From contig NZ_CP113097.1 of the NCBI RefSeq assembly GCF_026625125.1, forward strand, positions 4,016,001 through 4,080,000: a stretch of 64,000 nucleotides of DNA, read 5' to 3'. Numbering within the stretch: position 1 is the first letter of the stretch; the number at the start of each line of letters is the position of its first letter. Source of the DNA: Pseudomonas putida (GTDB lineage: Bacteria > Pseudomonadota > Gammaproteobacteria > Pseudomonadales > Pseudomonadaceae). Positions 1,528 through 60,490 of this stretch are shown here, one piece after another. The notes below the pieces were generated by a model that was given only the letters and a program-made list of their open reading frames with translations, was not told where the DNA came from and did no database searches. Made by a program: the position numbers and the translations under genes.

Positions 1528-1528
<1 letters not shown>
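2..1528 (+). CDS. Pyoverdine NRPS, 3' end (partial adenylation domain, Thr-type, plus carrier domain)
   Basis: This is the C-terminal 508 residues of a non-ribosomal peptide synthetase whose start lies before the window. It opens inside an adenylation domain ([14 protein letters not shown] near residue 45, YRTGD near 283) and ends with a carrier domain ([11 protein letters not shown] near residue 440, Ser as phosphopantetheine site). Reading the pocket by eye against GrsA gives D-F-W-N-I-G-M-V, the classical threonine code. The last residues form a short acidic helix (LDTLEAWLDEMEEH) of the kind used as a docking peptide. The stop overlaps the next start as TGATG, so the two synthetases are translationally coupled and probably act in sequence. 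No epimerisation domain follows, so the Thr is expected to stay L. The module family is certain; the Thr assignment is inference from the code. Confidence 0.93.
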
Positions 1529-10065
<8,537 letters not shown>

Positions 10066-10125
10066 ACCTGCGCCCGGCCGCCCTGTGCGGCCGGGCCTTT
10101 ATCCAACACTGTGAAGGAAACCCGA

Positions 10126-11359: not shown

Positions 11360-13891
11360 TCAGTACGTCGCGCGTACCGTCAGCATGAAGTTGCGCGGAT
11401 CGCCGTAGTAGTTGCCATAGGTCGAGGTACCGACGGTCTGGTAGTACTTCTTGTCGAACAGGTTGTTGCCGTTGAGGGTCACATTCCAGTGCTCGTCGAT
11501 GCGGTAGTCGACCATCGCATTCCAGATCGCATACCCGCTCTGCTGGTATTCGAAAGGCACATTGGACTGCACCACGTTGCCCAGGCCGTCATAGGTCGCA
11601 GCAGTACCGCTGACCTTGGTCGCGCTCTGGATGTCCACACCACCCCCGACGCGGAAGTCGTTCAACACACCGGGCAGGCGGTAGGTGGTGAACAGCTTGG
11701 CCATGTGCTTGGGCGTGACCGTGCTCAACGCAGAGCCAGTGTCGCGGTTCTTGTTGATGTTCAGGGTGTAGCTGGCCATCATCATCCATTCCGGCAGGAT
11801 TTCGCCGGAGATTTCCATGTCGATGCCCTTGCTGATGGTTTCCCCACCATTGACGTAACAGCAGTTACCGCCGAATGCCACCTGGCTCAACGGGTAGTTC
11901 GGGTCCTGCACCGCCTGGTCTTCACGCTTGGTGTAGTACAACGCGATACTGGTGTTGACCGCGCCGCCAAACAGCTCGCCCTTCAGACCGGTCTCATAGG
12001 TTTTGCCGGTCATCGGGTCCAGCGTGCTGCCGGAGGTCGCAGGCCCGGCCAGCAGGTTCTGCTGTGGCTTGAAGATCTCGGCGTAGCTGGCATAAGCGGC
12101 CCACTCGTCCGTCAGGTCATAGACGATGCCACCAAACGGGGTGACTTTGGTCGGCTCGCGCATGTCCACCCGCGACTGCTGGGTCCAGGTCCCGGCGGCG
12201 TCTGCCGTCTGGTAGGTCTGGTCGAACTTGTAGCGCTGTGCCCGGGCACCGACGATCAGGTGCAACGGCTCGGCCAGTTGCAGGCGCAGGCTCGAGTACA
12301 AGCCATATTGAGTCTGGCTGTTGGGTTTGTAGTCGCGGCTGATGGCCGGGCGGGCGCCAGGATCATCCCATGGGGTGGAGTCCGGGTCGAACACATTGAC
12401 CGGGCCGCCGGCAGTGGTGAAGCGGCCAGTGCCGCGCCAGCGGCTGTCGATCTCTTGATAGTCACCCCCCACCACCAGGCGGTGGTCGAGGCCGAACATG
12501 CTGAAGTCGCCGGAGACGTTGACGTCCCAGAGGTTCTGCTCGCTCCACTGGGTGTTGTAGGTGCCGTAGCGGGTCACGCCGACGCCGGTGACCGGGTTCA
12601 CCGAGCCCAGCGTCGTGGCGTTGTTGGTGGTGATGGTGTCGTAGATGTTGGTGTAGCTCAGGTTGAGCTTCCAGTCATCGTTCAGGCGATGGTCGACCTT
12701 GGCGAAGTACTCGCGGGAAAAGCCGTCCGCGTACGCCCAGGTGGTAGACAGCCCGGTATGGCGCGGCAGGCCAAGGTCGGCACCGTCGCTGTAGCGTGGC
12801 ACGGCCGAGGCGGTGCCGGTCTCGTGGACCTTGTTGAAACGCAAGCCGGCGGTGAGCATGGTGTCGTCGGTGACATCGGCTTCAAGCACGCCATAGAAGA
12901 ACGGCTTGTCGGTGGCACGGTTGTCGACGAAGTACTGGCGGTCCTGATAGGCCACCACCATGCGGCCGCGCAGCTTGCCATCGAAGCCCAGCGGCCCGGT
13001 CACGTCCAGCTCGCTGCGGTAGTTGTCCCAGCTGCCCGCCGAGGCGGTGAACTTGAGCTGGTAGAAGTCCAGCGGGCGCTTGCGCACCAGGTTGATGATA
13101 CCGCCCGGGTCACCGGTGCCGCCAAACAGCGCGCTGGCGCCACGCAGTACTTCCACGTGGTCGAATTCGGCGATGTCGTAAATGTTCGACGCGTAGAAGC
13201 TGCCGGCGGTGGTACCCAACGCCATGGGGGCGGCACCGTCAAGCTGGATGTTCTGGATCGGGAAGCCGCGCGAGTAGAAGTCCTGGATACGGAAGGTGTT
13301 GCTCTGCACCGTCACACCCGGCACGGCCTTCATCGCATCGTTGATGTCGGTGAACTGGCGGTCTTCGATGACCTGGCGGGTGATCACCGACACCGATTGT
13401 GGGGTTTCTTTCAACGAGGTCGGGCTTTTCGAGCCGACGCTGGTCAGGCCCGGCGTGTAGGAGCCAGTGTTCTCGGTCGCCTGGCCCATGCCCTGGCCCA
13501 TGATGGTGGTTTCGCCAATGACCAGCGCACCGGCGCCGACGTCACTGGTGTCGGTGCTGATCAGCAGGACCGAATTGTTCTCGATACGGTACGTAAGGCC
13601 TGCGCCTTCCAGCAGTTGCGACAGGGCCTGGTCCGGCTCCATGGTGCCGCTGACCTTCGGTGCACGCTTGCCGCTGACCAGGTCGGGCGAGTAGACCATC
13701 TGCAGGCCGGTCTGCTGGCCAAGGGCGATCAGTGCCTGGTCCAGTGGTTGGGCTGCGATGTCCACCGCCACCGGCTGGGCATGGGCGTGGGCCATGGCCA
13801 GGCTCAGCACCAGTGCCGAGGCACGCAGGCTCCACTTCGATGGCCCGGCGGCCAAGGCTGCCCCCTTGTTTCGCATACGTTTGGACTTCAT
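11360..13891 (-). CDS. fpvA: TonB-dependent ferri-pyoverdine receptor with N-terminal signalling domain (FpvA-like)
   Basis: An 843-residue outer-membrane receptor that imports the ferric siderophore with TonB energy. A signal peptide with a basic start and hydrophobic core (cleavage probably after AHAHA, near residue 38) is followed by a secretin/TonB short N-terminal (STN) domain (about 45-105). That domain marks transducing receptors that signal to an anti-sigma factor. The plug domain is at about 150-265 (LKETPQSVSVITRQ, and a GGTGDPGGIINLVRKRP stretch). The 22-strand barrel runs to the C-terminal aromatic residue (RATY). Length and layout match FpvA. The gene is convergent with the NRPS-esterase operon and lies downstream of the minus-strand NRPS operon. 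I found no anti-sigma gene (fpvR) or fpvI next to it. The assignment to pyoverdine is from context; the receptor family is certain. Confidence 0.87.
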   Translation of the reverse strand: MKSKRMRNKGAALAAGPSKWSLRASALVLSLAMAHAHAQPVAVDIAAQPLDQALIALGQQTGLQMVYSPDLVSGKRAPKVSGTMEPDQALSQLLEGAGLTYRIENNSVLLISTDTSDVGAGALVIGETTIMGQGMGQATENTGSYTPGLTSVGSKSPTSLKETPQSVSVITRQVIEDRQFTDINDAMKAVPGVTVQSNTFRIQDFYSRGFPIQNIQLDGAAPMALGTTAGSFYASNIYDIAEFDHVEVLRGASALFGGTGDPGGIINLVRKRPLDFYQLKFTASAGSWDNYRSELDVTGPLGFDGKLRGRMVVAYQDRQYFVDNRATDKPFFYGVLEADVTDDTMLTAGLRFNKVHETGTASAVPRYSDGADLGLPRHTGLSTTWAYADGFSREYFAKVDHRLNDDWKLNLSYTNIYDTITTNNATTLGSVNPVTGVGVTRYGTYNTQWSEQNLWDVNVSGDFSMFGLDHRLVVGGDYQEIDSRWRGTGRFTTAGGPVNVFDPDSTPWDDPGARPAISRDYKPNSQTQYGLYSSLRLQLAEPLHLIVGARAQRYKFDQTYQTADAAGTWTQQSRVDMREPTKVTPFGGIVYDLTDEWAAYASYAEIFKPQQNLLAGPATSGSTLDPMTGKTYETGLKGELFGGAVNTSIALYYTKREDQAVQDPNYPLSQVAFGGNCCYVNGGETISKGIDMEISGEILPEWMMMASYTLNINKNRDTGSALSTVTPKHMAKLFTTYRLPGVLNDFRVGGGVDIQSATKVSGTAATYDGLGNVVQSNVPFEYQQSGYAIWNAMVDYRIDEHWNVTLNGNNLFDKKYYQTVGTSTYGNYYGDPRNFMLTVRATY

Positions 13892-14323: not shown

Positions 14324-17300
14324 CTATGCGGTGACGTTCTTCGCCTTGGCCAGCATCTGCTCTTTTTCCTCAGGGCTCATGCGCTCCAGTTGCAGGCGCG
14401 CCTGGGCAATCTTGAGCAACTGCCCGCGGTTTGCCTCGTTGGCCTGCAACGCCTCGGCCAGCCCCGCCACGGTGGGGTGCTCGAAGACCAGCGCCGGCGC
14501 CACTTCACAGTTCAGCAACTTACGAATCCCAGCCACCAGCTTGATGATCAGCAGCGAATGGCCGCCGGCCGCGAAGAAGTCGGTGTGGATACCGATGCTT
14601 TCGCGCCCGAGCAACTGCGCCATGCGCTGGGCCAGCAATGTCTGCAATGCGTCCTGGGGTACATCCTGCTGGCCGCCCTCCTGCGGCATTTCCAGCAGCG
14701 CGCGACGGTCGAGCTTGCCGTTGGCCAGGCGCGGCAGGCTCGGCAGGCGACGCAGCTGGGTTGGCACCATGGCCGCTGGCAGGCACTCGGCCAGCCGCGC
14801 ACGCAGCGAGGCTTCATCGAGCCCATGGCCTTCGCCGTGCACGACGTAGCAAGCCAGCAGCTCCAACTGCCCCGGCTGGTTTTCAACCGCCAGCACCGCA
14901 CCTTGAGCAACCCCATCGACCTCCAGCAGGCGCGCTTCCACTTCGGCCAACTCGACACGGAACCCGCGGATCTTCACCTGATGATCCTGCCGGCCCTGCA
15001 GCAGGATGCCGCCATCGGCCTGGTAACGGGCCAGATCACCGCTGCGGTACAGACGCTCGCCGGCTTGCAGGGGGTTGTCGATAAAGCGCGACGCCCCCTG
15101 CTCGCCCCCCAGATAACCCCGGCACAGCTGGCGCCCGGCCACATGCAGTTCACCCAGCTCACCCACGCCCGCCAGTTGCCCAGCAGGCGTCAGCACGTAA
15201 ACGCGGTTGCCGGCCAGCACCTGGCCCAGGCTCGCCATCGGCGCGTCGGCCCGCAGTGGCTGGACCAGCACGCCGACCGTGGCTTCGGTCGGGCCATAGT
15301 GGTTGAACACCCGAGCCTGAGGCGCCAGCCGTGCGATGCGCGCCAGCAACTGCACACTCGGCGCTTCGCCGCCCAGCACCAGGGTCGCTGGCAGGCAAGG
15401 CTGCGCGCTGTCGAGCAGCGCCGCCAGGTGCGACGGCACGATCTTCAGGCAATCGATACCTTCGTCGCGCACGAACGCGGCAAACGCTGCCGGGTCCTGC
15501 ATCACGGCGTCGCTGGCAACGTGCAACGTGGCGCCAACCTGCAAGGCGCCGAACAGGCTGGTGTGGCCGAGGTCAGCCGCCACCGTGGCGCTGAACGCAA
15601 AGTGCCTGCAGGCCGAAAGGTCCAAAGCTTGCTCAGCGGCCTGCAGGTACCCGGCCAGTTGCCCATGCTCGATGACCACCCCCTTGGGCTCACCGGTCGA
15701 ACCTGAGGTAAACAGTACATAGGCTGCCGTATCGGCCGTGAGCACTTGCGCCTCGAACGGCGCTGAAGTTTCCGCGAGCTGCTCGAACAGCGTGGCATCG
15801 ACCTGCAACTGCGCGCCGGCCAGGCGGCTGACCTGCTCGCGTCGCGCAGCGGGCCAGAGTGGGTCCAGCGGCAGGTACGCAGCGCCGCACTTCCAGCAGG
15901 CCAGCACCGCCGCCAGCCAGTGCACCGAGCGCGGCAGGGCCAGGCCGACCACGCTGGCATTGCCAATGCCCTGGGCCTGCAGGTGGGCGGCCAACGCCGT
16001 GGCCAGCTGGTCGAGCTGCTGCCAGCTCCACCCCTGCCCTTGTTCGATGATCGCCAGCGCCCGGGGCTGTTCGCGCACCCAGCGGGCGACCCGCTCGGGC
16101 AGCAGTTCGGTGACCGCTGGCAGTGCGGCCTGGGCGTTACGCTCAAGCACCAGACGACGCTGTCGTTCACCGGCAATGCCCAGGCTGACCAAGCTCGCGT
16201 CGGGCGTCTGGGCAATGCTTGCCAGCAGCGTGGCGTACTGTTCGAGCAGGAGCTGCGCCAGTGCCGGGCTGTGCCACGCGGCCCAGTACTGCACCAGCGC
16301 CTGTGGCGCTGCGCAGTCGCTGTCGACCTGCAGCAGCAGGTCGGGGCCCGCCATCGGCGCGTCAATGCCCACCACCTGCCAACCACCGGCCAGCGGCGGG
16401 CAGGCGGGGGTCAGGCAAAAACCGATGGCGGCAGGCGCCAGCGCGGGCGTTTGCTCGGGGCTGAAGTATTCCTGCCAAGCCGCATGCTGCTCCAGCTGCG
16501 CAGCCAGGCCGTGCAGCCAGGTACGCAGTGGCTGCTCGGCCTGATAATCGAGCAGCACCGGCAACTGCTTGTGGTACACCCCGGCGCTGCCGGCGAAATA
16601 GGCGTAGTCGCCACGGCTGTCGTGGCACCAGTTCACCACCTGCACAGGCTGGCCATCGAGCCGCGCCAGCAGCAGCCACCAGGCTGCCTGCAGCACCCTG
16701 TCCAAGGGCAGGCCAAGCCCGGCCAGGCGTGTCAAAACGTCCGGGTCGAGGTCTGTGCGGGCCTGCGCGCGCTCACCGCGTGGGCTGCCTGGGGCTGGGC
16801 GCCAGGGCAGTTGCTGGGCGCTCGCGGGCTTGCCGTTCAGCGCGTTCCAGTAGCTGCGCGCAGTGCTGGCGTCTTCATCCACCACCACCTCGCTGCGCCA
16901 CTGCAGGTATTGTTCGAAATCGCCATCGTCGGTTGTTTCCAATGCGCCTTGGCAGATCGCCGCAAGGCTTGCAGCCAGCGCCGGCAGGCTGGCAGTGTCG
17001 ACCAGCGCTGCCAGTACACCCAGCACCAACTGGCAACGCCCCTCGGCCTGCTCGCACACCAGCACGGCAACGCCCGCACCGGCCTGCACATCCACCTCAC
17101 GCTCGAACCAGGCCTGGCGGCCGGCGCTATCGCCCGCCGCCAGCCACGTCAGCTCCACCCCCGCGGCCTCGCGCTCAAAAAACTGACGCAAGCCGCGATA
17201 ACCTGCGGCTTGGCCGATGCGCAGGCGCAGCGCGTCATGGCGGCCCTGCCACTGCTGCAGGGCGGCCCGCAGTGCGGCGGGCGCCGGCACGTTGTCGAGC

Positions 17301-17406
17301 TGCAAGGTGATGCAGCGCGCCGCGTCCTGCCAGCGGGCAGGCAGTGCAGTCAGCTCGAGCGACTGCATGGGCAACAACGGCAGGCCACTCGTTTCGGCGG
17401 TGATGT

Positions 17407-17410
<4 letters not shown>
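14324..17410 (-). CDS. Pyoverdine NRPS, degenerate condensation/interface domain - A(Asp) - T
   Basis: A 1028-residue single-module synthetase. Residues 1 to about 420 have the length and position of a condensation domain but lack its signature: HHxxxDG is replaced by a segment reading LAALVDT, and the usual SxAQxRxW and HQDxPFE motifs are absent. The adenylation domain (about 445-930; YVLFTSGSTGEPKG near 566) gives the by-eye code D-L-T-K-V-G-H-V, essentially the aspartate code. A carrier domain follows (TDFFAAGGHS near 943). The start overlaps the upstream NRPS stop by 4 bases (ATGA), and that NRPS ends in a fused hydroxylase, so the Asp held here is the likely beta-hydroxylation substrate. 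The degenerate N-terminal domain fits the published 'interface domain', a non-canonical condensation-family member thought to present carrier-bound Asp to the hydroxylase. That identification is inference. Confidence 0.9.
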
Positions 17411-27621
<10,211 letters not shown>

Positions 27622-27678: not shown

Positions 27679-27702
27679 ACGGATACAACCTGCAAAAAAT
27701 TA
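27679..27702 (-). promoter_or_regulatory. Iron-starvation (PvdS) box, NRPS operon 27.6-14.3 kb
   Basis: Read on the minus strand, TAATT-N16-CGT, 58 bases before the NRPS start. It deviates from the PvdS consensus TAAAT-N16/17-CGT at one -35 base, the same deviation as in the pvdL box. It is paired back to back with the box for the divergent SCP2-cupin gene. Confidence 0.65.
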
Positions 27703-27739: not shown

Positions 27740-27763
27740 TAAATTTCGCAACCCGCCCTTCGT
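27740..27763 (+). promoter_or_regulatory. Iron-starvation (PvdS) box, SCP2-cupin gene
   Basis: TAAAT-N16-CGT on the plus strand, 38 bases before the GTG start at 27802. It is an exact match to the PvdS consensus and the strongest reason to place the SCP2-cupin gene in the pyoverdine regulon. Confidence 0.75.
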
Positions 27764-27801: not shown

Positions 27802-28932
27802 GTGGAACTGCAACCTTTGCTGAGCAAGCTGTTCGCCAATGCCGGTGCCGTAGGCGTCGAAGGCATCTTCCAATTCATCTTCGGCCCGCAGCAGGCCTAC
27901 TGGTGTGAAGCCGGTACCCGGCCGCGCACCGAAGCCGGCCGGCATGCAACGCCGGATGTCACCATCGAAGTCACCCAGCAGGACCTGCTGGGCATCATGG
28001 CCGGCAGCGCCAACGTCGAGGAGCTGTTTGCCGGCGGCCGGCTGAAAATCGGCGGCAACCTGGGCCTGGCCACGCTGCTGCCGCAAATCATCGACCTGGC
28101 GCGCAAGGGCGTGACGGCGCAGAAGACTGACATGAACCAGCGCCATGTCACGCCACCGCGCTACAGCGAACGTGTGTCGGCCAGCCTGCCGCAGTTGACC
28201 GAAGTAGAACGAATCCCCGCCGCGCAATTGAATGTAGAGCGTTTCCAGCGCCAGTATCTGCCGTACGGCACACCGGTGGTGATCAGTGACGCCCTGCGTG
28301 AGTGGAAGCTGTTCAACCTCGACCGCCAGGCTTCGCTGGAGCACTTCGCCGAACTGCAGGGCATCACCCGTCATGGCGACTACGTGAAGAAGACCTTCTC
28401 CACCGAGCGCGACTTTCGCTCCACGTCCATGGCAGATTTCATCAACGCCCTGGACAACCCGCAGCCGCGTGACAGCAACGGCGAGCCACCGGCTTACATG
28501 GGCAACAACATCGTGCCTGCGCAGTTGCTCGAGCTGATCCAGTACCCGCCCTACTTCGAGCGCTCGCTATACATCGCACCGCGCATCTGGATCGGCCCCA
28601 AAGGTACCCTCACGCCGTTGCACCGCGACGATGCCGACAACCTGTTCGCCCAGGTGTGGGGGGACAAGTCGTTCATCCTGGCGGCGCCACACCATCGCCC
28701 GGCCCTGGGCACCTGGTCGACCTCGCCCAAGGGTGGCCTGGACGGCTGCGACTTCAACCCTGATGCACCGGATTATCAGCGTTTCCCCGAAGCGCGCGGG
28801 GTTACCTTCCTGCGGGTGCTGCTGCAAGCCGGGGATCTGTTGTTTCTGCCAGAAGGCTGGTTCCACCAGGTGGAGTCGGTATCGACATCGCTGTCTGTGA
28901 ACTTCTGGGTCAACTCCGGGCGCGGCTGGTAA
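27802..28932 (+). CDS. SCP2-domain / cupin-8 (JmjC-like) fusion protein, putative Fe(II)/2-oxoglutarate oxygenase
   Basis: A 376-residue soluble protein in two parts. Residues about 5-110 look like an SCP2 sterol-carrier domain (a GIFQFIFGP strand, ITQQD-like and GRLKIGGN motifs), a fold that binds lipids. Residues about 140-376 form a cupin-8/JmjC barrel with iron ligands H274-R-D276 (LHRDDADN) and H355 (WFHQVES) and a C-terminal SVNFW strand. JmjC-type cupins hydroxylate amino-acid side chains. The GTG start was chosen because GAAGAGG lies 7 bases upstream; the open frame runs further 5' but overlaps the divergent NRPS. A perfect PvdS box precedes it. Pyoverdine precursors are fatty-acylated and peptidyl, so a lipid-binding oxygenase could act on the acylated precursor or a carrier-bound residue. 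The function is unproven. It is not the TauD-type SyrP fold. Confidence 0.85.
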   Translation: MELQPLLSKLFANAGAVGVEGIFQFIFGPQQAYWCEAGTRPRTEAGRHATPDVTIEVTQQDLLGIMAGSANVEELFAGGRLKIGGNLGLATLLPQIIDLARKGVTAQKTDMNQRHVTPPRYSERVSASLPQLTEVERIPAAQLNVERFQRQYLPYGTPVVISDALREWKLFNLDRQASLEHFAELQGITRHGDYVKKTFSTERDFRSTSMADFINALDNPQPRDSNGEPPAYMGNNIVPAQLLELIQYPPYFERSLYIAPRIWIGPKGTLTPLHRDDADNLFAQVWGDKSFILAAPHHRPALGTWSTSPKGGLDGCDFNPDAPDYQRFPEARGVTFLRVLLQAGDLLFLPEGWFHQVESVSTSLSVNFWVNSGRGW

Positions 28933-29018: not shown

Positions 29019-30410
29019 TCAGACCGCCGCAGCCAGGGCCTGCGCAAAGCGCTGCGCCACCTCATCGACCTGCTGCGCAGTGATGATCAGCGGCGGCAGG
29101 AAGCGCACCACCGCACCGTGGCGCCCACCCAGCTCCAGAATGAGCCCGCGTTTGAGGCATTCGCGCTGCACCTTGGGTGCCAGTTCGCGATTGGCCGGCG
29201 GGTGGCCCAGCACGTCGCGCTGGCCCTGCACATCGACCAGCTCGACCCCGAGCATCAGGCCACGCCCACGGATATCGCCCAACTGCGGATAGTCGCGTTG
29301 CAGCCGCTGCAGGTGATCACGCAGGCGCCGGCCCATGGCCTCGGCATGCTCGGCCAGGCGATGCTCGACCAGGTAGTTGATCACCGCCGAACCCGCGGCC
29401 ATGGCCATCTGGTTACCACGGAACGTGCCGGCATGGGCGCCCGGCTTCCAGGTGTCGAGCCAGTCGCGGTACACCACCACCGCCAGCGGCAGGCTGCCAC
29501 CAATGGCCTTGGACAGGGTGACCACATCGGGCACGATGCCGGCGTGTTCGAAGGCGAACATCCGCCCGGTACGGGCAAAACCGCTTTGAATCTCATCGAC
29601 GATCAGTGCCACGCCGGCCTGCTCGGTGATGCGCCGCACCCCCTTGAGCCATTCGACATCGGCAGGTATCACCCCGCCTTCGCCCTGCACCACCTCCAGG
29701 ATCACGGCAGCGGGCAGCGGCACGCCACTTTCAGGGTCCAGCAGCAGGTTTTCCAGGTAATGCAGGTTGGCCTTGACCCCGGCTTCGCCACCCAGGCCGA
29801 ACGGGCAGCGGTAATCGTAGGGGTACGGCATGAACTGCACCCCGTTGGCCAACAAGGCACCCAGCGGTTGCTTGGGGCCATGGCTGCCCATCAGGCTCAG
29901 CGCGCCCTGACTCATGCCATGGTAGGCGCCCTGGAAGGCCAGCACGGTGCTGCGCCCGGTGGCGCTGCGCACCAGCTTGAGCGCCGCCTCCACGGCGTCG
30001 GTCCCGGTCGGGCCACAGAACTGCACCTTGGCCTCACGGCGCAGCGCCTCGGGCAGGATGCCGAACAGGTCCTGAACGAAGCGATCCTTGACCGGCGTGG
30101 TCAGGTCGAGTGTGTGCAAGGGGATTTCATCGGCCAGGACACGCTGGATGGCCTCGATCACCACCGGGTGGTTATGGCCCAGGGCCAAGGTACCGGCGCC
30201 AGCCAGGCAGTCGATGAACTGCCTGCCCTCGACATCTTCGACATGGATGCCACGGGCGCGCTTGAGCGCCAACGGGATACGCCGCGGATAGCTGCGGGCG
30301 TTGGATTCCTGTTGCTGCTGGCGTTGCAGCAGGGGCGACTCGGTGAACTCGTACAGCGGTTGCGGCGCGCTGGCCGGCAGGACCTGGGCAAGGCTGGAAG
30401 CGGTCGACAT
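29019..30410 (-). CDS. pvdH: Diaminobutyrate-2-oxoglutarate aminotransferase (PvdH)
   Basis: A 463-residue class III PLP aminotransferase that makes L-2,4-diaminobutyrate from aspartate semialdehyde with glutamate as amino donor. The product is the third substrate of PvdL for the chromophore and may also enter the peptide. Visible marks: PLP-phosphate-binding GPTGTDAVEAALK, the DEIQSGFARTGR motif, catalytic Lys301 in TLSKAIGG, and GRGLMLGVEL near the C-terminus. The start at 30410 was chosen over an upstream in-frame ATG because GAGG lies 7-8 bases before it. The gene has its own PvdS-type box upstream on the minus strand and is convergent with the SCP2-cupin gene. Confidence 0.93.
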   Translation of the reverse strand: MSTASSLAQVLPASAPQPLYEFTESPLLQRQQQQESNARSYPRRIPLALKRARGIHVEDVEGRQFIDCLAGAGTLALGHNHPVVIEAIQRVLADEIPLHTLDLTTPVKDRFVQDLFGILPEALRREAKVQFCGPTGTDAVEAALKLVRSATGRSTVLAFQGAYHGMSQGALSLMGSHGPKQPLGALLANGVQFMPYPYDYRCPFGLGGEAGVKANLHYLENLLLDPESGVPLPAAVILEVVQGEGGVIPADVEWLKGVRRITEQAGVALIVDEIQSGFARTGRMFAFEHAGIVPDVVTLSKAIGGSLPLAVVVYRDWLDTWKPGAHAGTFRGNQMAMAAGSAVINYLVEHRLAEHAEAMGRRLRDHLQRLQRDYPQLGDIRGRGLMLGVELVDVQGQRDVLGHPPANRELAPKVQRECLKRGLILELGGRHGAVVRFLPPLIITAQQVDEVAQRFAQALAAAV

Positions 30411-30460: not shown

Positions 30461-30484
30461 ACGCTTGGCTGGGGGGAGGATTTA
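30461..30484 (-). promoter_or_regulatory. Iron-starvation (PvdS) box of pvdH
   Basis: On the minus strand TAAAT-N16-CGT, an exact consensus match, 51 bases before the pvdH start. Confidence 0.75.
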
Positions 30485-34367: not shown

Positions 34368-34385
34368 CAAACAAGGATCATGAAT

Positions 34386-35003: not shown

Positions 35004-35096
35004 TGGCACACAAAAGAGCCTCCGCCAAACGCTTGACAATTATCACATAACAAACAGTAGAACTTCACACACAAAACCCTAAAAAGGAATTTACCA

Positions 35097-45531: not shown

Positions 45532-48500
45532 TCACAACCCCTCCAGCTCCGCCATCAAATCACTCAACCTATCCACCTTGCCTTCATCCAGCGCACTGCC
45601 CTGCAGCCCACGCACATATTCAGCCAGCTCCTCGACCGTACTGCACTCGAACATCGCCCGCAGCGGCACGTTCAACCGCAGCTGCTTCTGCACCCGCGAG
45701 GCAATCTGCGTAGCCAGAAGCGAATGCCCGCCCAGTTCGAAGAAGTTGTCGTGCATCCCTACCCGCTCGGCCTTGAGCACGTCGGCCCAGATACCGGCGA
45801 GCACCTCTTCCAGTTCGTCGCGGGGCGCCACGTAGGCCCGGCCATGCTGGCCGCCGATGTCGATGGCCGGCAATGCCTTGCGGTCGAGCTTGCCGTTGGC
45901 GTTGTGCGGCAGGCTATCGAACCAGCCCCAGTGCAGCGGCACCATGTATTCCGGCAAGTCGGCGCGTAGGCGTTGCTTGACCTGCTCCAGCAGCGTGGCA
46001 TCGGCGCTGACGCCCTGATGCGCCACCAGGTATCCGACCAGGTGCTTGCCGTTGACACCGTCCTGCACACCCACGGCGGCGTCGCGGATTTCGGCCTGCT
46101 CGTGCAGGCGGGCTTCGATTTCACCCAGTTCGATCCGGTAACCGCGGATCTTCACCTGGTGGTCGATGCGTCCGACGTATTCGAGCACGCCATCGGGGCG
46201 CTGCCGCGCCAGGTCACCCGTGCGGTACAGGCGCTCGCCCGGCGCACCGTGCGGGTGCGGGATGAAGGCCAGGGCGGTGCGCACCGGGTCGCCGACATAG
46301 CCACGGCCCACGCCGGTACCGGCAACGCACAGCTCGCCCACCGCGCCCAACGGCACCAGCGTTTGATCCTCGCCGTACAGGTACAGGCGGTTGTTGTCGG
46401 TTGGCGTACCGATCGGCAGGTAGCTGCCGCGCGTCGAGGCCAGGTCGACGCGGAAGAACGCTACGTCATCGGAGCACTCGGCCGGGCCGTAGGCATTGAC
46501 CAGGCCGATGCGCGGATAGCGCTGCAGCCATTGCGCGGCCAGCTCAGGCGGCATGGCTTCGCCGGTCGGCAACATCCAGCGCAGGCCGTCCAGCGCCTGG
46601 TGATCGTTGGCCAGCATGCCCTGGATCAGCGAGGGTACGCTTTCCAGCACGGTAATGCCGGTGGCCTGCACATGGGCCAGCAGGCCTTGCGGGTCGTGGG
46701 CGATGGCGTTTGGCACGATCTCGACCCTGGCACCGAACAATGGCGCGGCAAGGAATTGCCAGACCGAGATATCGAAGCTTTGCGAGGCGGTCTGGGCAAT
46801 CACGTCATGCTCGTTCAGCGCCAGGTAAGGGACCTTGCTCAGCTGGTTGTTGAGCATGCCGCGCTGCTCGACCATCACGCCTTTGGGCAGGCCTGTGGAG
46901 CCTGAGGTGTAGATCACATAAGCCAGGTTGTCCGGCCCGCTGTGAATCCCTGGGTCATGGCTGGCGACGCTGCTCGCCTGTACCTCTTCCCACACCAGCA
47001 GGCGTGGCCGTGCCCCACCCGCCAGTTCGTCCAGCAACAGGCGCGCCTGCTCGGCACAGGCCGCGCTGCACACCAGCACCGGCGTGCGGCTAAGCTCGAC
47101 GATGCGCTGCAGGCGCGCCGACGGCAGGCCGGGGTCCAGCGGCAGGTAACCGGCACCGGCCTTGAAGCTGCCGATGATCATGCCCAGCAGTGGCAGGCCC
47201 CGCTCGGCAAGCAGTGCGATCGGCTGATCGATGCCTGCGCCCGCAGCGACCAGCGCATGGCCCAGGCGGTTGGCTGCCAGGTTCAGGCCGGCGTAGTCGT
47301 AGCTCGCCTCGAGGCAGCGGGCCACCGTGCGCTCGGGGTGCGCGGCGACCTGTGCCTCGAACTGCGCGACGTAGCTCTGCTCCAGGGCGTAGGCATGTTC
47401 GGTACGGTTGCAGTCATCGAGCAGGAAGCGCTGTTCTTCTTCACCCAGCAGCGGCAGTTCGCTGACCTCGCCCTCGAAACCCTGCACCAACGCCAGCAAC
47501 AGGCGCTTGAACTCGGCCAGCAGACGTTCGACGGTCGAATGCTCGAAGTAGCGCTGGTCGAACGACAGGTGCAGGCCAAGGTCATCGCCCGGGTAGCACA
47601 CCGCCGTCAACGGGAAGTTGGTGTGAGTACGGCCCGAGTCGGAGCTGGCGTTGAGGTGCTGGGCGTGGTCGAGCACCGCGGTTTCCACCGGGGCGTTCTC
47701 GAACACGAACAGGCTGTTGAACAGGGGCTGACCTTTGGGCAGTTCGCTGCATTCCTGAATCGTCACCAAAGGCAGGTATTCGTATTCGCGCAGCTCCATG
47801 TTGCGCTCCAGCAGGCCTTTCAGCCACTGGCGCACGCTGCAACGCTGGCCCGGTTCGGGCAATTGCACACGCAGGGCGATACTGTTGATGAACAGGCCAA
47901 CGGTGCGCTGCATCTGCGGCATGCTCACCGGCCGCCCGGCCACGGTCACGCCAAAGGCGACGTCGCGCTCGCCGCTGTAGCGGGCAAGCACCAGGGCCCA
48001 GGCCGCCTGGGCGAAGGTGTTGATGGTCAGTTGGTGAGCCTGGGCCAGTTCGCGCAGGCGCACGCCGTCACTCACCGCCAGGCGGGTGTAGCAGTCACCG
48101 ACCACCATGCCGTCACCGGCATGGTCATTACGCAGCGGGCGGTCGCTTGGGATCGCCGTGGCGCGCTCGAAGCCGGCCAGGTTGGCCTGCCACCAGCCTC
48201 GTGCTTCGTCCAGGTCCTGGCGTTGCAGCCAGCCGATGTAGTCGCGGTAGCGTGGCGGCACCGGCAGCTGGGCCTGGCGGCCTTCGCCAAGGGCCTGGTA
48301 AAGCTCGAAGAAATCGTTCATCAACAGCGAGCGGCACCAGGCATCGATGAGGATGTGGTGGTTGCTCATCATGAACCAGTAACGCTCATCGTCCACCCGC
48401 ACCAGGCGCAAGTGGAACGGCGCCTGGCGCAGCAGCTCGAAGCCAGCCTCGCGTTCCTGCTTGTGCAGTGCTTGCAGCCGCTGTTCCTGGGCCGCCTCGT

Positions 48501-51500
48501 CGAGGCCGCGCCAGTCCTGATAGTCGACAGGCGTGTTACCCGGTTTGTGAATGATCTGCAGCATCGCTTCGCCGGCATTCCAGCTGAACGATGCTCGCAG
48601 TGCCTCGTGGCGCGCCACCACCGCCTGCCAGGCCTGGGCGAAACGCTGCGGGTCGAGGGCGCTATTGATGCGATAACGGTCCTGCATGTAGTAGATGCCG
48701 GTACCCGGCTCCAGCAGGGTATGCAGCAGCAGGCCCTCCTGCATTGGGGTCAGCGGGTAGACGTCTTCAATTTCGCCAGCCGGAACCGGCAGCGCGTCGA
48801 TCTGTTCCTGGGTCAGGTGCGCCAGCGGGAAGTCCGAGGGCGTGAAGCTGCCCGTACCCTCGGCCAGGCAGTGGCCAACCAGTGCCAGCAGTTCGTGGCG
48901 ATAGGCATCGGCCAGACGCGCAATGGTCTGCTGGTCGAAACGCTCGCGACTATAAGTCCAGCGCAACTGCAAGGCACCGCCATAGACCTGGCCGTCGACG
49001 CTCAGCCAGTTCGGCAGCGGCGCGTCGAGGTCGTGGGCCAGGCCGGCAGGGGCATCCAGCGGCTGGAACAGCGCCGCACTGTCGAACTGCTGGTCGAACT
49101 GGCCGAGGTAATTGAAGGTGATGCGAGCTTGCGGCAGCGCGGCCATGCGTTCGCGCCCGGCGTCATCAGCCAGGTAACGCAGCACGCCGAAGCCCTGGCC
49201 TTTGTGCGGCACCTCGCGCAGCTGTTCCTTGATGCGTTTGATCGAGGTGGCGCGTGCGCGGTCGTCGTCACCCGCCTGAGGGTTCAGGCGCAGCGGGTAG
49301 GCACTGGTGAACCAGCCCACGCTGCGGGTCAGGTCCATGTCTTCGAACAGCCCGTCACGGCCATGGCCTTCGAGCTGCACCAGCACCTCGTCGTCACCGG
49401 TCCAGTGGCACAGGGTGCGCGCCAGGGCAGTCAGCAGCAGGTCGTTGACCTGGGTGTGGTACGCCGCGGGGGCCTGCTGCAACAACTGACGGGTCTGCTC
49501 CACATCCAGGGCGATGGCCAGGGTATCGGCATGCCGGTGCAGGTTGCCGCCCTGCGGGTGATCACATGGCAGCTCATGGCGCACATGCCCCAGTTGGTCC
49601 TGCCACCAGCCGAGCTCGTCGCGCAGCGAATCGCTGCCGGCGTAGCTTGCCAGGCGCGCGGCCCAGTCGGCCATGGCGTGGGTCTTGGCCGCCAGCGGCT
49701 GACCACGGTACAGCGCCTGCAGGTCTTCGAGCAGCACGCGCCACGACACCCCATCGACCACCAGGTGATGGACCGCCAGCAACAGTCGCTGGGCGCCCTG
49801 CCCGTCACTGACCAGCAAGGCCCGCAGCAATGGCCCGTGTTCCAGGTCCAGGCTGCGTTGTACGTCGGTGTAAAGCGCCTGGCAGTCGTTGAAATCGGCC
49901 ACCGTGGCAGTCCATAGCAACTGCTCGCCAGGCGATACGGCGTATTCGCCCTGCCAGCGGCCATCGGCCTGGGTGAAGCGCAGGCGCAAGCTGTCGTGGT
50001 GCGCCAGCAATGCAGCCAGGGCCCGCTCCAGCAGGGCACTGTCCAACGGCACCCGCGCCTGGAGCAACACCGCCTGGTTCCAGTGGTGCGGTTGGGCCAC
50101 CTCACTGTCGAAGAACCACTGCTGGATCGGCGTCAGGCCGCTGTGACCCTGGCGTTGGCCCTGTTCGATGATGTTCGCTATCTCGCTGCGGCCAACCACG
50201 GCGGCCAGGGTCTGGATGGTCTGGTGCTGGAACAGGTCGCGGGGGGTGAACTCCAGGCCCAGCTGACGCGCCCGGCTGACCACTTGAATGGACAGAATCG
50301 AGTCGCCGCCGAGCTCGAAGAAGTTGTCCTGCACACCCACGCGGGAGACGTTGAGCACTTCGCGCCAGATCTGCGCCAGTTGTTCCTCCAGCTCGTTGGC
50401 CGGCGCCTGATAGTGCTGGCGCGCCTGCTCCAGGTCGGGCATCGGCAGGGCGCGGCGGTCGAGCTTGCCGTTGCCCATCAACGGCAGGCTGGCGAGCAGC
50501 ACCAGGTGCGCCGGTACCATGTAATCCGGCAGATGCTGGCGGGCGTCGGCCTTGACCGCTTCGCGCAGCTGGGCCTGGGCCTCGCTGTCGGCACTGGCCT
50601 GCTTGCACACCAGGTAGCCCACCAGTTGCTTGCCACCGGGCAGGTCGAGCGCGAGGACCACAGCCTCGTCGACATCGGCATGCGCCTGCAAGCGGCTTTC
50701 GATTTCGCCGAGCTCGATGCGGAAGCCGCGAATTTTCACCTGCTGGTCGGCACGGCCGATGTACTCCACCAGACCGTCGGCGCGCAGGCGAACCAGGTCA
50801 CCCGTGCGGTACAGGCGCCCACCGTCAGGGCTGAACGGGTCGGCGACGAAGCGCTCGGCACTGAGGCCCGGACGATCGTGGTAACCCTGGGCCAGGCCGG
50901 CACCACCGACGTACAGCTCACCGATGCCGCCCTGTGGCAGCAGTGCCAGTTCCTCGTCGAGGATGTAGGCGCTGCGGGCGCCGATCACCCGGCCGATGGG
51001 CACGCTGCCAGCGTCGGCGGGCAGTGTGTCGGGGGCCACGCAGGCCAGCGGCATGACCACGGTTTCGGTCGGGCCATAGGCGTTGATGAACTGCTGCGGG
51101 GCGAAGGCCTGGCGGATGCGCGCCAGGTGCTCGCCGGTCAGCGCTTCGCCGCCGGTGATCACCAGGCGCACCGGCAGTGGCTCGCCCTGCGAGGCGAGGT
51201 ATTGGGCCAGCTGGCTGCCGTAGCTTGGGGTGAAGCCAAGGACACTGACCTGCTGCTCACGCACCAGCTGGCAGATCTCTTCGGCGCCCCATTGGCCCTG
51301 GGCACGCAGCACCACGCGCGCGCCGCACAGCAATGGCACCAAGAGGCGTTCGCTGGCCGCGTCGAAGTTGATCGAGTAGAAGTGCAGCTCGCAGTCGTCG
51401 CTGCGCATGCCGAACGCGCTGATCACCGCCTGGCAATGCATGGCGATTTCACCGTGGCTGACCACCACGCCCTTGGGCTTGCCGGTGGAGCCGGAGGTGT

Positions 51501-54500
51501 AGATCAGGTAGGCCGGGTGTTGCGGCAGGTTGAGGTTGTCCAGCGGCGCATCGCTGTGGGCGCACAGGCTTGCGGCATCGTCCTCCAGGCTCCAGCTGGC
51601 CACCCCGCCTGGCAACTCGCCCAGGCTTTGGAGCAACGCGCGCTGGCTCAGCAGCAGGCCGATGCGGCTGTCCTCGATCATGTAGCGCAGGCGGTCGAGC
51701 GGGTATTCCGGATCGAGCGGCACATAGGCGCCGCCGGCCTTGAGGATGGCCAACAGGCCGACGACCATTTCCAGCGAACGCTCCAGGGCCAGGCCCACGC
51801 GCACCTGCGGGCCGACGCCACGCTCGCGCAGGGCACGGGCCAGGCGGTTGGCCTGCTGGTCGAGTTCGGCATAGCTCAGGTGCTGGCCGGCAAAGGTCAG
51901 CGCGCCGGCCTGCGGGGTGCGTGCGGCCTGGGCGGCGAACAGGCCGTGCAGGGTCTGGTCGAGGGCATAGTGATGTTCGCCTTGCAGCTGCCCGATCATC
52001 ACCTGCTGCTCGGCGTCGGCCAGCATTGGCAGTTCGCAAAGGCGCTGCTCGGGGTCGTCGAGCAGGCCAGTCAGCAGTTGCTGCCAGTGCTCGGCCATGC
52101 GCGCGATGCGCGGCTCGTCGAACAGGTCGCGGCTGTAGGTCAGGCAGCAACCCAGGCGGCCGTCGAGGTCGGTGACTTCCAGATACAGGTCGAACTTGGT
52201 GGCGCTGGCGTCGTTGACCAGATAATCCACCTGCATGCCGGCCAGCTCGCGGCTTTGCTGGAAGGCCCAGCGCTGCACGTTGCACATCACCTGGAACAGC
52301 GGGTTGTAGGCACTGCTGCGCGGTGGCTGCAGGGCTTCGACCAACTGGTCGAATGGCAGGTCCTGGTGCGACTGGCCTTCGATGGCGGCCTGGCGCACCT
52401 GGTCGAGCAAGGCGGCTACGGTCATCTGCCCGTCCACCTCGCAGCGCAGCACTTGGGTGTTGAGGAAGGCGCCGATCAGCCCTTCGCTTTCGGGGCGGAT
52501 GCGGTTGGCCACGGGCGCGCCGATGCGCAGGTCACGCTGGCCGCTGTAGCGGTGGAGCAAGGCGGCCAGGGTGGCGGTCATGGTCATGAACAGGGTCAAG
52601 CCGCGCTGGCTGTTGAAGGCATGCACGCGGGCCACCAGGGCCGGGTCCAGATCGAAGCGGTACAGCTCGCCACGGTGGCTTTGCACAGCCGGGCGTGGCC
52701 GGTCTGCCGGCAGGGCCAGCACCGGGTGCTCATCGCCCAGGCGCGCTTTCCAGTAGGCCAGTTGACGCGCCCCTTCGCCGCTTTCCAGCCACTGCCGCTG
52801 CCACACGCTGTAGTCCAGGTACTGCACTGGCAACGGCGTCAGCGGCGACTCGCGCTCATCGACGAACGCTTCGTACAGCTCGCCCAGTTCGCGGGCGAAG
52901 ATGTCCATGGCCCAACCTTCGGTGACGATGTGGTGCAGCGTGAGCACGAAATAGTGCTCGCGCTCCGCGGCCTTGACCAGGCAGGTGCGCAGCAGTGGGC
53001 CACGCTCCAGGTCGAACGGCTGGTGCGCCTGGGCCTCGGCCAATTGCTGCAGGCGCTGCTCGCTCAGGGCTGCTGGCAAATTGCTGAAATCCTGCCAGTC
53101 CAGGTGCACGGCGCTGTCAGCGGCCACGCACTGGTACGGCACACCGTCGATGGCGGGGAACGTGGTGCGTAGGGTTTCGTGGCGCACGATCAACGCCTGC
53201 AGCGCACGCTCGAAGGCATCCACATGCAACGTGCCGCGCAGGCGCGCCATGCCGCCGACGTTGTAGGCCGGGCTGTCCGGCTCCATTTGCCAGAGGAACC
53301 ACATGCGCTGTTGCGAGTACGACAGCGGCACGGCCTGGCGGCGGTCGACGCGGGGGATCTCGCCTTGCAGGTTGCGTTCACCGGCATCGCGGATACGGGC
53401 GATCTCGGCGCAGAAGGTGCCCAGTTCGCTGGCCTCGAACAACACTTTCAGCGGCAGCTCGACGTCGCACGCCTGGCGGGTGCGCGAGACGATCTGGGTG
53501 GCCAGCAACGAGTGGCCACCGAGGGCGAAGAAGTCGTCATGCAGGCCGATGCGCGGCAGGTTGAGCACTTCACGCCAGATCGCCGCGACCTTCTGTTCGA
53601 GCGCCGTTTGCGGTTCGACATGTTCACGCTGCTGCCAGGCCGGTGCCGGCAGGGCCTTGCGGTCGACTTTGCCGCTGGGGCCCAGCGGCATGTGTTCAAG
53701 CGCGATCAACTGCGCCGGCACCATGTAGGCCGGCAGGCGCTCGGCCAGGTTGGCCAGCAGCGTTTCAGCCTGAGCCGAGCCGCTGTAGTAGCCGACCAGT
53801 TGCGCCCCGACAGCGTCCTGGTGAATCAGCACCAGCGCCTGTTCGACACCCGGCTGGCTGAGCAGGCAGGCCTGAACTTCTTCCGGTTCGACGCGAAAGC
53901 CCCGCACCTTCACTTGCTGATCCAGACGGCCGAGGTACTCCAGGGCTTGTGCCTGCCAGCGGGCACGGTCGCCACTGCGGTACAGGCGCTCGCCGTTGCC
54001 ATCGGCCTGGGGCACGAAGCGCTCGGCGGTCAGGCCTGGGCGGCCCAGGTAGCCGCGGGCCAGGCCCGCGCCACCGAGGTACAACTCACCCGGTACGCCT
54101 GGCGCAGCCAACTGCAGGTCGGCATCCAGCACGCGGCAGATCACGTTGCCCAGCGGGCGACCGATGGGCGAACGCTGGCCGTCCTCGGCCTGGCAGTGCC
54201 AGTGGGTGACGTTGATGGCGGTTTCGGTCGGGCCGTAGCGGTTGTGCAGCTGCACCTGCGGCAGCAGTTGCAGCACGCGGTCACGCAGGTTGGCCGGCAG
54301 CGCTTCGCCACCAGAGTACAACCGGCGCAGGCTGGTGCAGCCTGCGGCCAGCGGCTCTTGCACGAACACCTGCAACAGCGGCGGCACAAAGTGCAGCGTG
54401 GTGACCTGATGCGCCTGCACCAGTGCGGCGATACGTTGCGGGTCGCGGTGTTCACCGGGGCCTGCGAGCACCAGTTTGCAGCCGGTGATCAGCGGCCAGA

Positions 54501-57500
54501 AGCATTCCCACACCGACACATCGAAGCTGATCGGCGCCTTCTGCATCAGCACGTCGCTGTCATCCAGCGCGTAGGTGGCCTGCATCCACTGCAGGCGCTC
54601 GGCCAGGGCCGCGTGGGTATTGCCCACGCCTTTGGGCTGGCCAGTGGAGCCGGAGGTGTAAATCACGTAGGCGAGGTTGTCGCCGTGCAGGTGCAGGCCC
54701 GGCGCTTGGCTGGGCCAGCTGTCCAGGTGCAGCTGGTCGAGGGCGATGGCGCTGACGCCGTCGACCTGCGGCAAGCTGGCGAGCATGGCGCTGTTGCTCA
54801 ACAACAGGCTGGCCTGGCAATCGCGCAGCATGTAAGCCAGGCGCTCGGCGGGGTAGTCGACGTCCAGCGGCACATAGGCGCCACCCGCCTTGAGGATGGC
54901 CAGCAGGCCAACCAGCAGTTGCGGCGAGCGCTCGACGGCGATGGCCACGCAGGTGTCGGGGCCAACGCCCTTGTCGCGCAGGTAATGGGCCAGGCGGTTG
55001 GCCTGCTGATGCAGTTCGGCATAGTCAAGGCTGCCGCCTTGCCAGGCCAGCGCAGTGCGCTCGGGGGTCAGGCGCGCTTGTTCGTTGAGCTGCTCGACCA
55101 CCAGACGCTGCGGTACCGGCGCCGGAGCCTGGCCCCAGGCCAACAGTTGCTGACGGCCTTGCTCGTCCAGCAAGTCGACGTCGCCCACGGCCAGCTGCGG
55201 CTGTGCGCACACCTGTTCGAGCAGCGCCAGCAGGTGCTGGGACAGGCGCTTCACAGTGCCCTCGGCAAACAGTTCGGCGGCATAGTCGAAGGCCAGGCTC
55301 AGGCGGCCCTGGTGGTCTTCCTCGCTGTGCAGCTGCAGGTCGAACTTGGCTTCGCGGCTGTGCCATGGCAACTCTTCTGCCAGCAGGCCCGGCAGGCGGC
55401 GCAAGGCCGAGAGGTCGCGCTGCTGGTGGTTGAACATCACCTGGAACAGGCCTTGTTCACGGGCCTCGGGCAGCGCTTCGAGCAGTTGCTCGAACGGCAG
55501 GTCCTGGTGGGCCTGGGCATCGAGGGTGGCTTGGCGCACCTGGGCCAGCAGTGCGCTGAATGGCAGGCGGCCATCGAGTTGCGCACGCAGTACCTGGGTG
55601 TTGATGAAGAAGCCGACCATGCCCTGGGTTTCCTGGCGAGGGCGGTTGGCGTTCGGCACGCCGACGCGGATTTCCGCCTGGCCGGTGTAGCGGTGCAGCA
55701 GGCCTTGCCAGGCGGCCAGCAAGACCATGAACAGGCTGGCTTGCTGTTCGCGGGCCAGGCCTTTGAGGGCGTCGCTGAGCGCAGCCGGGACCTTGAGGCT
55801 CAGGCGTGCGGCGCGGCGAGTCTGCTGGGTGGAACGCGGCTGGTCGGGGTGCAGGTCGAGTACCGGCAGCCTACCGCCCAGGTGTGCCTTCCAGTAGTCC
55901 AGTTGACGGGCGCTTTCGCCGTCGGCCAGCCATTGGCGCTGCCAGCTGCCGTAGTCGGCGTACCCCAGCGGCAGCGGCGCCAGCGCGGCTTCCAGGCCCT
56001 GGCAGCGGGCCGCATACAGTTTGGCGAACTCGTCGAGCAGGATATTCAGCGACCAGCCATCGGCGACGATGTGGTGCAAGGTCACCCACAGTTGATGATC
56101 TTCATCGCCCAGCTGCGCCAGGGTCACACGCAGCAGTGGCCCTTGGGTCAGATCGAACGGTTGCTGGGCTTCGGCTTCGCGGCGCTCGGCCACTTCGCTG
56201 GCCGTCAGCCCTTGCAGGTCCAGGCGCTGCAGATTGAAAGGCTGCTCGGGCAGGATGTGCTGCAGGGCCTGGCCATCTGCTTCGCTGAACACGGTGCGCA
56301 GTGCTTCGTGGCGCTGCACCAGCGCCTGGAACGCGCCTTCCAGCGCGGCCTGGTGCAGCTCGCCGCGCAGGTGCAGGCCGGCGGGAATGTTGTAGGCCGC
56401 CGAGTGCGGCTCCAGTTGCCACAGCAACCACAGGCGGTTTTGCGCCAGCGACTGCGCCAGCGCCTGGCCACGGTCGAGGGCCGCGACAGCTGCCGCGCCA
56501 CCACCGCCCTGGGCGATGATCGCCGCCACAGCGGCGCTGTAGTCGGCCAGGGTCGGCGCTTCGAACAAGGTGCGCAGGTTCAGCGAGATACCCAGCTCAT
56601 CGGCCAGGCGCGCGGTGACCTGGGTGGCGGCAATGGAGTTACCGCCCAGCAGCAGGAAATGGTCGTCGGCGGCGACCGCTTCGGCGTCGAGAATCTCGCG
56701 CCAGACGCCGGCGATGCGGGCCTGCAGGCCATCACCGGCTGCAGCGGTCTCGGCCGCTTCGGTAGCGCTCGGGAAACGCGCGTAGCAATCGAGGCTGCCG
56801 TCATTCATGCGCAGGCGGCACGCCGAACGTTGCAGCTTGCCGCTGGAGGTCTTCGGCAGCGCGCCCGGGTTGAGCAACAGAACCACCGCCGGCGCCTGGC
56901 GGCAGGCATCGGCGATGACCTGGCGCAAGGTCTTGATCAACGCCTCGGGCTTGACCGCCTTCTGCACGTTGCGGCTGACTTCCACCGCCACGCCGATGCC
57001 CTCCTCGCCCTGATCGTCGACGGCGAACACCGCGACGCGGCCCTTGCGCAGCAGCTCGACTTCGCGCTCCAGGGTTTTTTCCAGATCCTGCGGGTACAGG
57101 TTCTGGCCGCGCACGATGAGCATGTCCTTCAGGCGCCCAGTGACGAACACTTCGCCGTCGCGCATGAAGCCCAGGTCGCCAGTACGCAACCAGGTCTGGC
57201 CGTCCATGGCGACGAAGGTGCGGGCGCTGGCCTCGGGATTGCGCCAGTAGCCCAGGGCGATGCTTGGGCCACCGGCCCAGATCTCGCCCACCCGGTTGTC
57301 CTCCAGCACTTGCAGGCGCTGCGGCTCGACGATACGCACCGCATGGCCGGGTTGCGGGTAGCCGCAGCTCATCAGCACGCTGCCCTTGCCGGGTTCGGCG
57401 CGGTTGGCGGCGAACGCTTCAGCGTCGAGTTCCAGCGCACCGATGCCCTGGCCACGGCGGCTGCCGCTGACGAACAGGGTGGCTTCGGCCAGGCCATAGC

Positions 57501-58569: not shown

Positions 58570-58593
58570 ACGGACGGGCGAGGGAAGAAATTA
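58570..58593 (-). promoter_or_regulatory. Iron-starvation (PvdS) box of pvdL
   Basis: On the minus strand TAATT-N16-CGT, 91 bases before the pvdL start. It carries the same one-base departure from TAAAT as the box of the other long NRPS operon. The 305-base gap 58480-58784 otherwise contains the Fur box and promoter region of pvdS and no gene. Confidence 0.65.
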
Positions 58594-58688: not shown

Positions 58689-58717
58689 TTGACAATCATT
58701 ATCATTCTGCATAGTTT
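58689..58717 (+). promoter_or_regulatory. Fur box overlapping a sigma-70 promoter of pvdS
   Basis: TTGACA (58689-58694) is a consensus -35. The overlapping stretch GACAATCATTATCATTC (58691-58707) closely matches the Fur box, built of repeated NATWAT hexamers. The -10 is weaker (TAGTTT at 58712-58717 with a 17-base spacer, or CATAGT at 58710). Iron-loaded Fur bound here would block transcription of pvdS, about 70 bases downstream. Confidence 0.8.
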
Positions 58718-58784
58718 GTCGCACGTCGTAGGAAGCTTCCCTGTGCGGGGTGCTCCTATTCCTTTCTGTGACAAGGTGATTTCC

Positions 58785-60466: not shown

Positions 60467-60490
60467 ACGTCATTGCAATCGGGGAATTTA
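60467..60490 (-). promoter_or_regulatory. Iron-starvation (PvdS) box of the acetyltransferase
   Basis: On the minus strand TAAAT-N16-CGT, an exact consensus match, 43 bases before the acetyltransferase start. It overlaps the last bases of the upstream solute-binding-protein gene. Confidence 0.78.

Follow-up and report, generated by a model that had tools for sequence, protein, structure and literature searches.

In the biosynthesis of pyoverdine the starter glutamate is linked through its γ-carboxyl, and in the periplasm PvdN turns it into succinamide and PtaA into ketoglutarate; the malamide of some species is made by an unknown enzyme (PMC6206403, represented here, like the other papers cited, by part of its text). 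The same portion of that paper considers succinamide the likelier precursor of malamide, states that hydroxy-glutamate has never been seen, and describes strains PAO1 and A506 as without malamide (PMC6206403). The malamide route is likewise stated as unknown in the available part of PMC9569983.

The gene described here, from the pyoverdine region of a Pseudomonas putida genome, encodes a protein with an SCP2-like N-terminal half and a JmjC/Cupin_8 C-terminal half that is predicted to be an active, JMJD5/FIH-like Fe(II)/2OG oxygenase. It shares its enzyme class and its setting in NRP siderophore loci with the TauD-type siderophore β-hydroxylases (TBH_Asp, IBH_Asp and IBH_His) but belongs to another Pfam family and occurs with or without them. 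In contrast to JMJD5/KDM8 (a JmjC arginyl hydroxylase), JMJD7, TYW5 and FIH, it is bacterial, fused to SCP2 and found in siderophore loci. Its first 100 residues resemble SCP2/nonspecific lipid-transfer proteins, from which it differs in the fusion of SCP2 to an oxygenase; its ligand binding is putative. PvdN and PtaA act on the starter Glu, and the gene stands beside pvdN in some species, but both are periplasmic PLP enzymes whereas the SCP2-JmjC protein is a predicted cytosolic 2OG oxygenase. The Fe/2OG halogenase OocPQ, which is comparable in substrate logic, is 13% identical. In search listings of the open-licence PMC literature we found no JmjC, cupin, SCP2 or malamide-forming gene tied to pyoverdine. 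The enzyme class is an established one, and on the evidence of these searches the proposed pyoverdine role and the SCP2 fusion are new.

The window, meaning the whole stretch of 64,000 nucleotides that was analysed, holds a pyoverdine locus with the following features.

1528..10065, plus strand: terminal peptide NRPS with thioesterase
11360..13891, minus strand: TonB-dependent receptor, FpvA by position
14324..17410, minus strand: next NRPS module, with an A-domain code that we take to mean Asp
17407..27621, minus strand: peptide NRPS of 3404 aa, built of four condensation-type, two adenylation and two carrier stretches and, at its C-terminal end, a TauD domain
about 17476-18354, minus strand: the TauD domain at the C-terminus of this divergent NRPS
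27679..27702, minus strand: near-consensus TAATT-N16-CGT box of the divergent NRPS, one mismatch
27740..27763, plus strand: exact PvdS-type (IS) box TAAAT-N16-CGT of the SCP2-JmjC gene, ending 38 bases before its start
27802..28932, plus strand: gene for the SCP2-JmjC/Cupin_8 oxygenase, running from a GTG start at 27802 to a stop at 28932 and encoding 376 aa
27802..28101, plus strand: SCP2 half, about aa 1-100, by Pfam SCP2 and by profile match to nsLTP/SCP2 structures
28237..28929, plus strand: JmjC/Cupin_8 half, about aa 146-376, with codons for H274 at 28621, D276 at 28627, K289 at 28666 and H355 at 28864
29019..30410, minus strand: pvdH for a diaminobutyrate-2-oxoglutarate transaminase (start set by eye), with its exact box at 30461-30484
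45532..58479, minus strand: pvdL-type chromophore NRPS, TAATT box at 58570-58593
58689..59315, plus strand: ECF-type sigma factor, PvdS by position
59411..60424, minus strand: GNAT acyltransferase, PvdY-like, exact box at 60467-60490

Other genes of the region were noted in passing. An Abhydrolase_3 esterase gene (10111-11073, plus strand) is flanked by the genes for the terminal NRPS and the receptor, and its relatives in other species (L039, L041, L042, L044, L137, L185 and L190) stand either between pvdN and the SCP2-JmjC gene or near receptor and NRPS genes, which makes it a recurrent hydrolase gene of pyoverdine loci. A HisKA kinase and an OmpR-type regulator, together a two-component system (30771-32773, minus strand), keep their place beside pvdH in P. 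putida-like loci, and a gene for an Ntox15-type putative effector lies inside the pyoverdine region with two adjoining GAD-like/Tdi1-type immunity genes (33024-35717, plus strand).

Pfam placed Cupin_8 at residues 147-369 (1e-35) and SCP2 at residues 45-97 (6.9e-8), and the SCP2 half scored 33.2 bits against the Pfam SCP2 profile, over the cut-off of 21.3. Profile comparison, which the first-pass annotation had proposed for both halves, matched the N-terminal 100 residues to nsLTP/SCP2 structures (3.5e-9) and the protein also to JMJD5 (9e-23); together with the aligned metal ligands these results uphold its description of an SCP2-like domain fused to a JmjC/cupin-8 domain with an intact H-x-D...H motif. 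The SCP2 half also matched a fatty acid-binding protein (1.2e-4), and 36 of its 100 columns are invariant in 81 sequences. The start codon is the same in 10 of 12 other aligned relatives, the remaining two being longer.

In a structural comparison of residues 126-376 the protein showed the double-stranded β-helix of the JmjC fold, and the structures nearest to the cupin half were JMJD5, JMJD7 and FIH. H274, D276 and H355 align with JMJD5 positions, as do T271, N280 and K289, which by equivalence with JMJD5 (Lys, Asn, Ser/Thr) we take to be residues of the 2OG site. Among the 81 aligned sequences H274 and D276 are present in all and H355 in 80, the remaining one being truncated, while K289, N280 and T271 are invariant. 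The TauD profile was absent from the five Pfam matches of the protein, and the annotated distinction between this oxygenase and the TauD hydroxylase of the locus holds good: the Pfam families differ, and the gene is often present where TauD has no match. An invariant tyrosine, Y194, takes the aligned position of the JMJD5 glutamate that binds the substrate arginine. Nearby R190, K197, R203 and R206 are likewise invariant in the 81 sequences; they would suit an acidic substrate, in a stretch (Y194 and R190-R206) that is modelled with low confidence.

The exact TAAAT-N16-CGT box reported in the first-pass annotation 38 bases before the start is present at 27740-27763. The back-to-back box that it gave to the NRPS does lie on the divergent strand (27679-27702), but is not exact, carrying TAATT and thus one mismatch; pvdL has the same TAATT variant, and the PvdH and PvdY genes have exact boxes. 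Three exact boxes occur in the window against 0.18 expected, whereas boxes with one mismatch are at chance level (10 against 8.3 expected). Relatives of the gene were searched for in GTDB species genomes; 92 were found and the best 80 of these 92 were examined. Within 300 bases upstream, 73 of the 80 have an exact box, mostly 36-38 bases from the start, against a background of about 0.018 per 300 bases over the same 80 loci, a value that includes the boxes of the SCP2-JmjC genes and comes from relatives that are not independent. The base preceding CGT is T in 70 of the 73 exact boxes. As to the other seven loci, three (L103, L114 and L144) carry TAATT-N16-CGT in the corresponding position, in L145 pvdN precedes the gene on the same strand at a distance of 74 bases, and L143, L147 and L150 have no good box upstream of it. 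Exact boxes stand at -34/-35 in L151, L152 and L154 even though no pvd homologue is in reach. From this conserved box we infer that PvdS would control the gene.

Of the 199 Pseudomonas genomes sampled, 46 gave a match to the gene, and in 40 of these it is complete or almost complete (among them G080, whose match begins at residue 39). The six outside the 40 are two distant matches (G103 and G174), two fragments (G143 and G153) and two frame-broken copies (G034 and G105). A family-wide sample gave matches in 8 of 248 genomes, in three genera, and a class-wide sample of 321 genomes gave only the genome under study and one distant cupin; in the genomes sampled, close relatives are thus confined to the Pseudomonadaceae. 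Records labelled Pantoea sp. Ap-967 and Serratia proteamaculans also hold the gene, and the former is taken as a mislabelled Pseudomonas.

An NRPS or other pvd homologue lies near the gene in 74 of the 80 loci examined (best 80 of 92): NRPS at 64, PvdH at 13, PvdN at 8, FpvA at 4, PvdO at 3 and PvdY at 1, the NRPS matches being by similarity and not proof that each makes pyoverdine. Two of the six remaining loci lie on contigs 5.8 and 6.6 kb long. A predominance of sites away from siderophore loci, which the first-pass annotation had named as evidence against a pyoverdine tailoring role, was therefore not what we saw, and in many species the gene of this predicted oxygenase stands behind a PvdS-type box in a locus of pyoverdine type. 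The eight pvdN genes lie within about 10 kb of the SCP2-JmjC gene (best 80 of 92), and in the six of these loci that were viewed (L128, L132, L137, L141, L142 and L145) pvdN adjoins it or is separated from it by one reversed esterase gene. The place beside pvdN is typical of one P. putida subgroup; in WCS358 and its relatives the order is pvdN, reversed esterase, SCP2-JmjC gene and reversed pvdH. The A. vinelandii gene has PvdO-like genes in its vicinity and, on the opposite strand, a gene for a PvdM-like M19 dipeptidase. Overall, we put the probability that the protein is a pyoverdine tailoring oxygenase of the PvdS regulon at roughly 0.85.

Some genomes depart from this pattern. The frame-broken copies or short remnants in G034, G105, G143 and G153, all but the last with NRPS or further genes of pvd type visible within 20 kb, suggest repeated loss of the gene. 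In G103 a distant SCP2-Cupin_8 fusion (L053:9432-11045) lies beside radical SAM, RimK-like ATP-grasp and, by eye, P450-like genes in what looks like a peptide-modification cluster; with these neighbours, SCP2 need not signify an acyl tail, nor is the fusion restricted to acylated siderophores. In G174 a stand-alone Cupin_8 gene without an SCP2 match (L052:9361-10299) lies beside the thioesterase end of an NRPS on a contig that also carries pvdN.

Our proposal for the substrate, the best supported of those considered, is tentative, and we give it somewhat less than an even chance: the enzyme would act on the starter Glu, a target that the first-pass annotation did not name, at the malamide step. 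Before export, a cytosolic SCP2-JmjC enzyme would add a hydroxyl to the side chain of this conserved residue, N-acylated and either bound to PvdL or within acyl-ferribactin, and the fused SCP2 domain would hold the fatty-acyl tail meanwhile. Export, deacylation and chromophore maturation would follow, and PvdN would then turn hydroxy-Glu into malamide (malate arising by hydrolysis) as it turns Glu into succinamide. What the analysis shows is the domain make-up, the conservation of ligands and box, the match in fold, the locus and the co-occurrence; activity, cytosolic location, substrate, hydroxyl position and the role of SCP2 are all points that we infer. Hydroxylation before export would fit because 2OG and Fe(II) are taken as cytosolic, PvdN is periplasmic and the SCP2-JmjC protein has no apparent signal peptide. 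PvdN had a match in 36 of the 40 genomes with the gene compared with 87 of the 159 others, uncorrected for relatedness and with two genomes whose only match is a 41% paralogue scored as lacking it. There was no PvdN match in 4 of the 40, nor, at 1e-40 among 14 named genomes, in A. vinelandii, P. carbonaria and P. lopnurensis, all of which have the gene; malamide formation by PvdN therefore cannot be its sole outcome.

P. fulva NBRC 16637 has the SCP2-JmjC gene (L131) and PvdN and no TauD match, the cupin being the sole 2OG oxygenase found in a search for the TauD domain and the cupin. The P. fulva pyoverdine is Asp-Ser-Ser-AcOHOrn-Lys-Lys-cOHOrn by MS/MS on NBRC 16639; NBRC 16637 gives the same main masses, 1204.56 and 1220.55, from which the authors inferred the same sequence (PMC12195549, available portion). 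Isoform A of NBRC 16639 has a B1 ion reported as C17H17N4O6, 373.11 (PMC12195549), which by mass arithmetic is the malamide acylium. NBRC 16637 shows the malamide mass too. From this peptide and this B1 mass, the malamide hydroxyl of P. fulva sits on carbon, and no enzyme is assigned to it. Going by the exact masses, the available portion of that paper seems to have swapped its labels 'succinamide' (1205.54) and 'succinylated' (1204.57), and its 'malic acid' isoform A is the amide (PMC12195549).

Other strains can be set beside P. fulva. P. putida NBRC 14671, which carries the gene (L140), has masses 16 apart, 1342.58, 1358.58 and 1374.59 (PMC12195549, in part), left without a peptide assignment because the NRPS is split over contig ends. 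P. putida NBRC 14164 counts against the proposal, as it gives a +16 pair, 1336.52/1352.52 (PMC12195549, in part), and has no record among the best 80 of 92 relatives; so does the statement that hydroxy-glutamate has never been seen (PMC6206403). P. putida GB-1 makes 30.7% malamide and 53.9% azotobactin (PMC4019867, in part). WCS374 and P. fluorescens ATCC 13525 are reported, in the available part of PMC3496975, without malic forms. These two strains and P. aeruginosa, for which no malic forms are reported either, are not among the best 80 of 92 loci. The P. brassicacearum type strain (L097; CCUG 51508, which we take to be DSM 13227) carries the gene. By mass arithmetic, and on the sequence that we assume for A214, m/z 1134.41 is succinamide A214, which counts against a malamide reading there. 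It is the value given for P. brassicacearum pyoverdine in the available part of PMC12971057. P. taiwanensis m/z 1044 was considered as support and dropped: the codes of the type strain (Gly, Asp, OHOrn, Ser, OHOrn type) misfit the published Ser-Lys...Thr-Ser-OHOrn, and Mala plus His is isobaric with Suca plus OHHis.

If the starter Glu is not the substrate, one of the peptide residues might be, such as Asp, His, Lys or Orn, with the enzyme acting alone or as a back-up to TauD. The gene is divergent from the TauD-bearing NRPS in the window, in G174 an NRPS end has a stand-alone Cupin_8 next to it, and JMJD5 relatives act on peptide side chains. At 1e-20 the TauD domain matched 101 of 199 Pseudomonas genomes, namely 28 of the 40 with the gene compared with 73 of the 159 others. 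This is a weak excess that favours a peptide residue slightly, but 12 of the 40 have no match, and we rejected TauD co-occurrence as an explanation; at 1e-15, 7 of 14 named genomes with the gene, including P. fulva NBRC 16637 and P. putida NBRC 14671, have none. When the A-domain codes of 20 loci were read by motif and taken at their assumed meanings, they differed between loci. The OHOrn type alone was present in every one of the 20, and none of the codes shared by all stands for a C-hydroxylatable residue. This reading covered 40-kb stretches (84 kb in the genome under study), missed some A domains and included one locus with a broken copy of the gene. The suggestion that the gene might track one particular pyoverdine residue was thus not supported, the encoded peptides beside it being different. 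The available text on P. fulva, moreover, reports its pyoverdine without a C-hydroxylated peptide residue, yet NBRC 16637 carries the gene (PMC12195549). Because the neighbouring NRPSs differ, 12 of 40 genomes have no TauD match and P. fulva shows this combination, we consider a peptide-residue substrate unlikely. The main task might instead be the azotobactin chromophore, with malamide a by-product or the work of its own enzyme: if the enzyme oxidised the position adjoining the amide carbonyl in the starter Glu, the rest of the side chain would be lost and the carbonyl would close the extra ring. A. vinelandii, an azotobactin producer, has the gene and no PvdN match, and the m/z 302 ion has the mass of chromophore-NH-COOH (302.077), which minus water is azotobactin B1 (284.067). 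According to the available portions of the sources, P. fulva NBRC 16639, GB-1, MnB1 and CFML 90-51 make both malic forms and azotobactin; NBRC 16639 has azotobactin at m/z 1131.50 and NBRC 16637 a species at 1115.47 termed azotobactin type -16 (PMC12195549). The authors of that paper assign the m/z 302 ion to the Mala side chain, and the P. fulva isoform purified for amino acid analysis was the malamide one, which speaks against azotobactin as the main product (PMC12195549, in part); we find this alternative distinctly unlikely.

Two further readings are improbable. The protein might hydroxylate proteins or the ribosome and have been recruited as a regulator in iron starvation, not as a biosynthetic enzyme, as its nearest structures JMJD5, JMJD7 and FIH are protein hydroxylases; against this, its close relatives occur in the sampled genomes only in Pseudomonadaceae, in association with pvd-type loci and a PvdS-type box, and the broken copies and remnants in four genomes suggest an accessory function. 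Less probable still is that the enzyme oxidises the fatty-acyl chain, or senses the acylated precursor, instead of acting on Glu. SCP2 domains bind acyl chains and this one is well conserved, but we know of no lipid oxygenase among the matched JmjC structures, and oxidation of the chain would gain little because PvdQ removes it. Returning to hydroxylation of the starter Glu, a more specific version of it is doubtful but worth stating: one hydroxylation next to the linking carbonyl, with SCP2 gripping the tail, would open two branches, one to malamide through PvdN and one to azotobactin through C-C cleavage and ring closure. A hydroxyl next to the linking carbonyl would be expected to ease C-C cleavage toward azotobactin.

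Pyoverdine is a model siderophore, and the enzyme for its malamide or malate side chain is listed as unknown in the available parts of two papers (PMC6206403, PMC9569983). If true, the dual-branch hydroxylation would explain two orphan steps and the co-production of malic forms and azotobactin in some strains. The SCP2-JmjC gene offers a conserved, box-controlled candidate for the malamide step in about one-fifth of the sampled Pseudomonas genomes, and it would bring JmjC oxygenases and a lipid-binding fusion domain into the siderophore toolbox.
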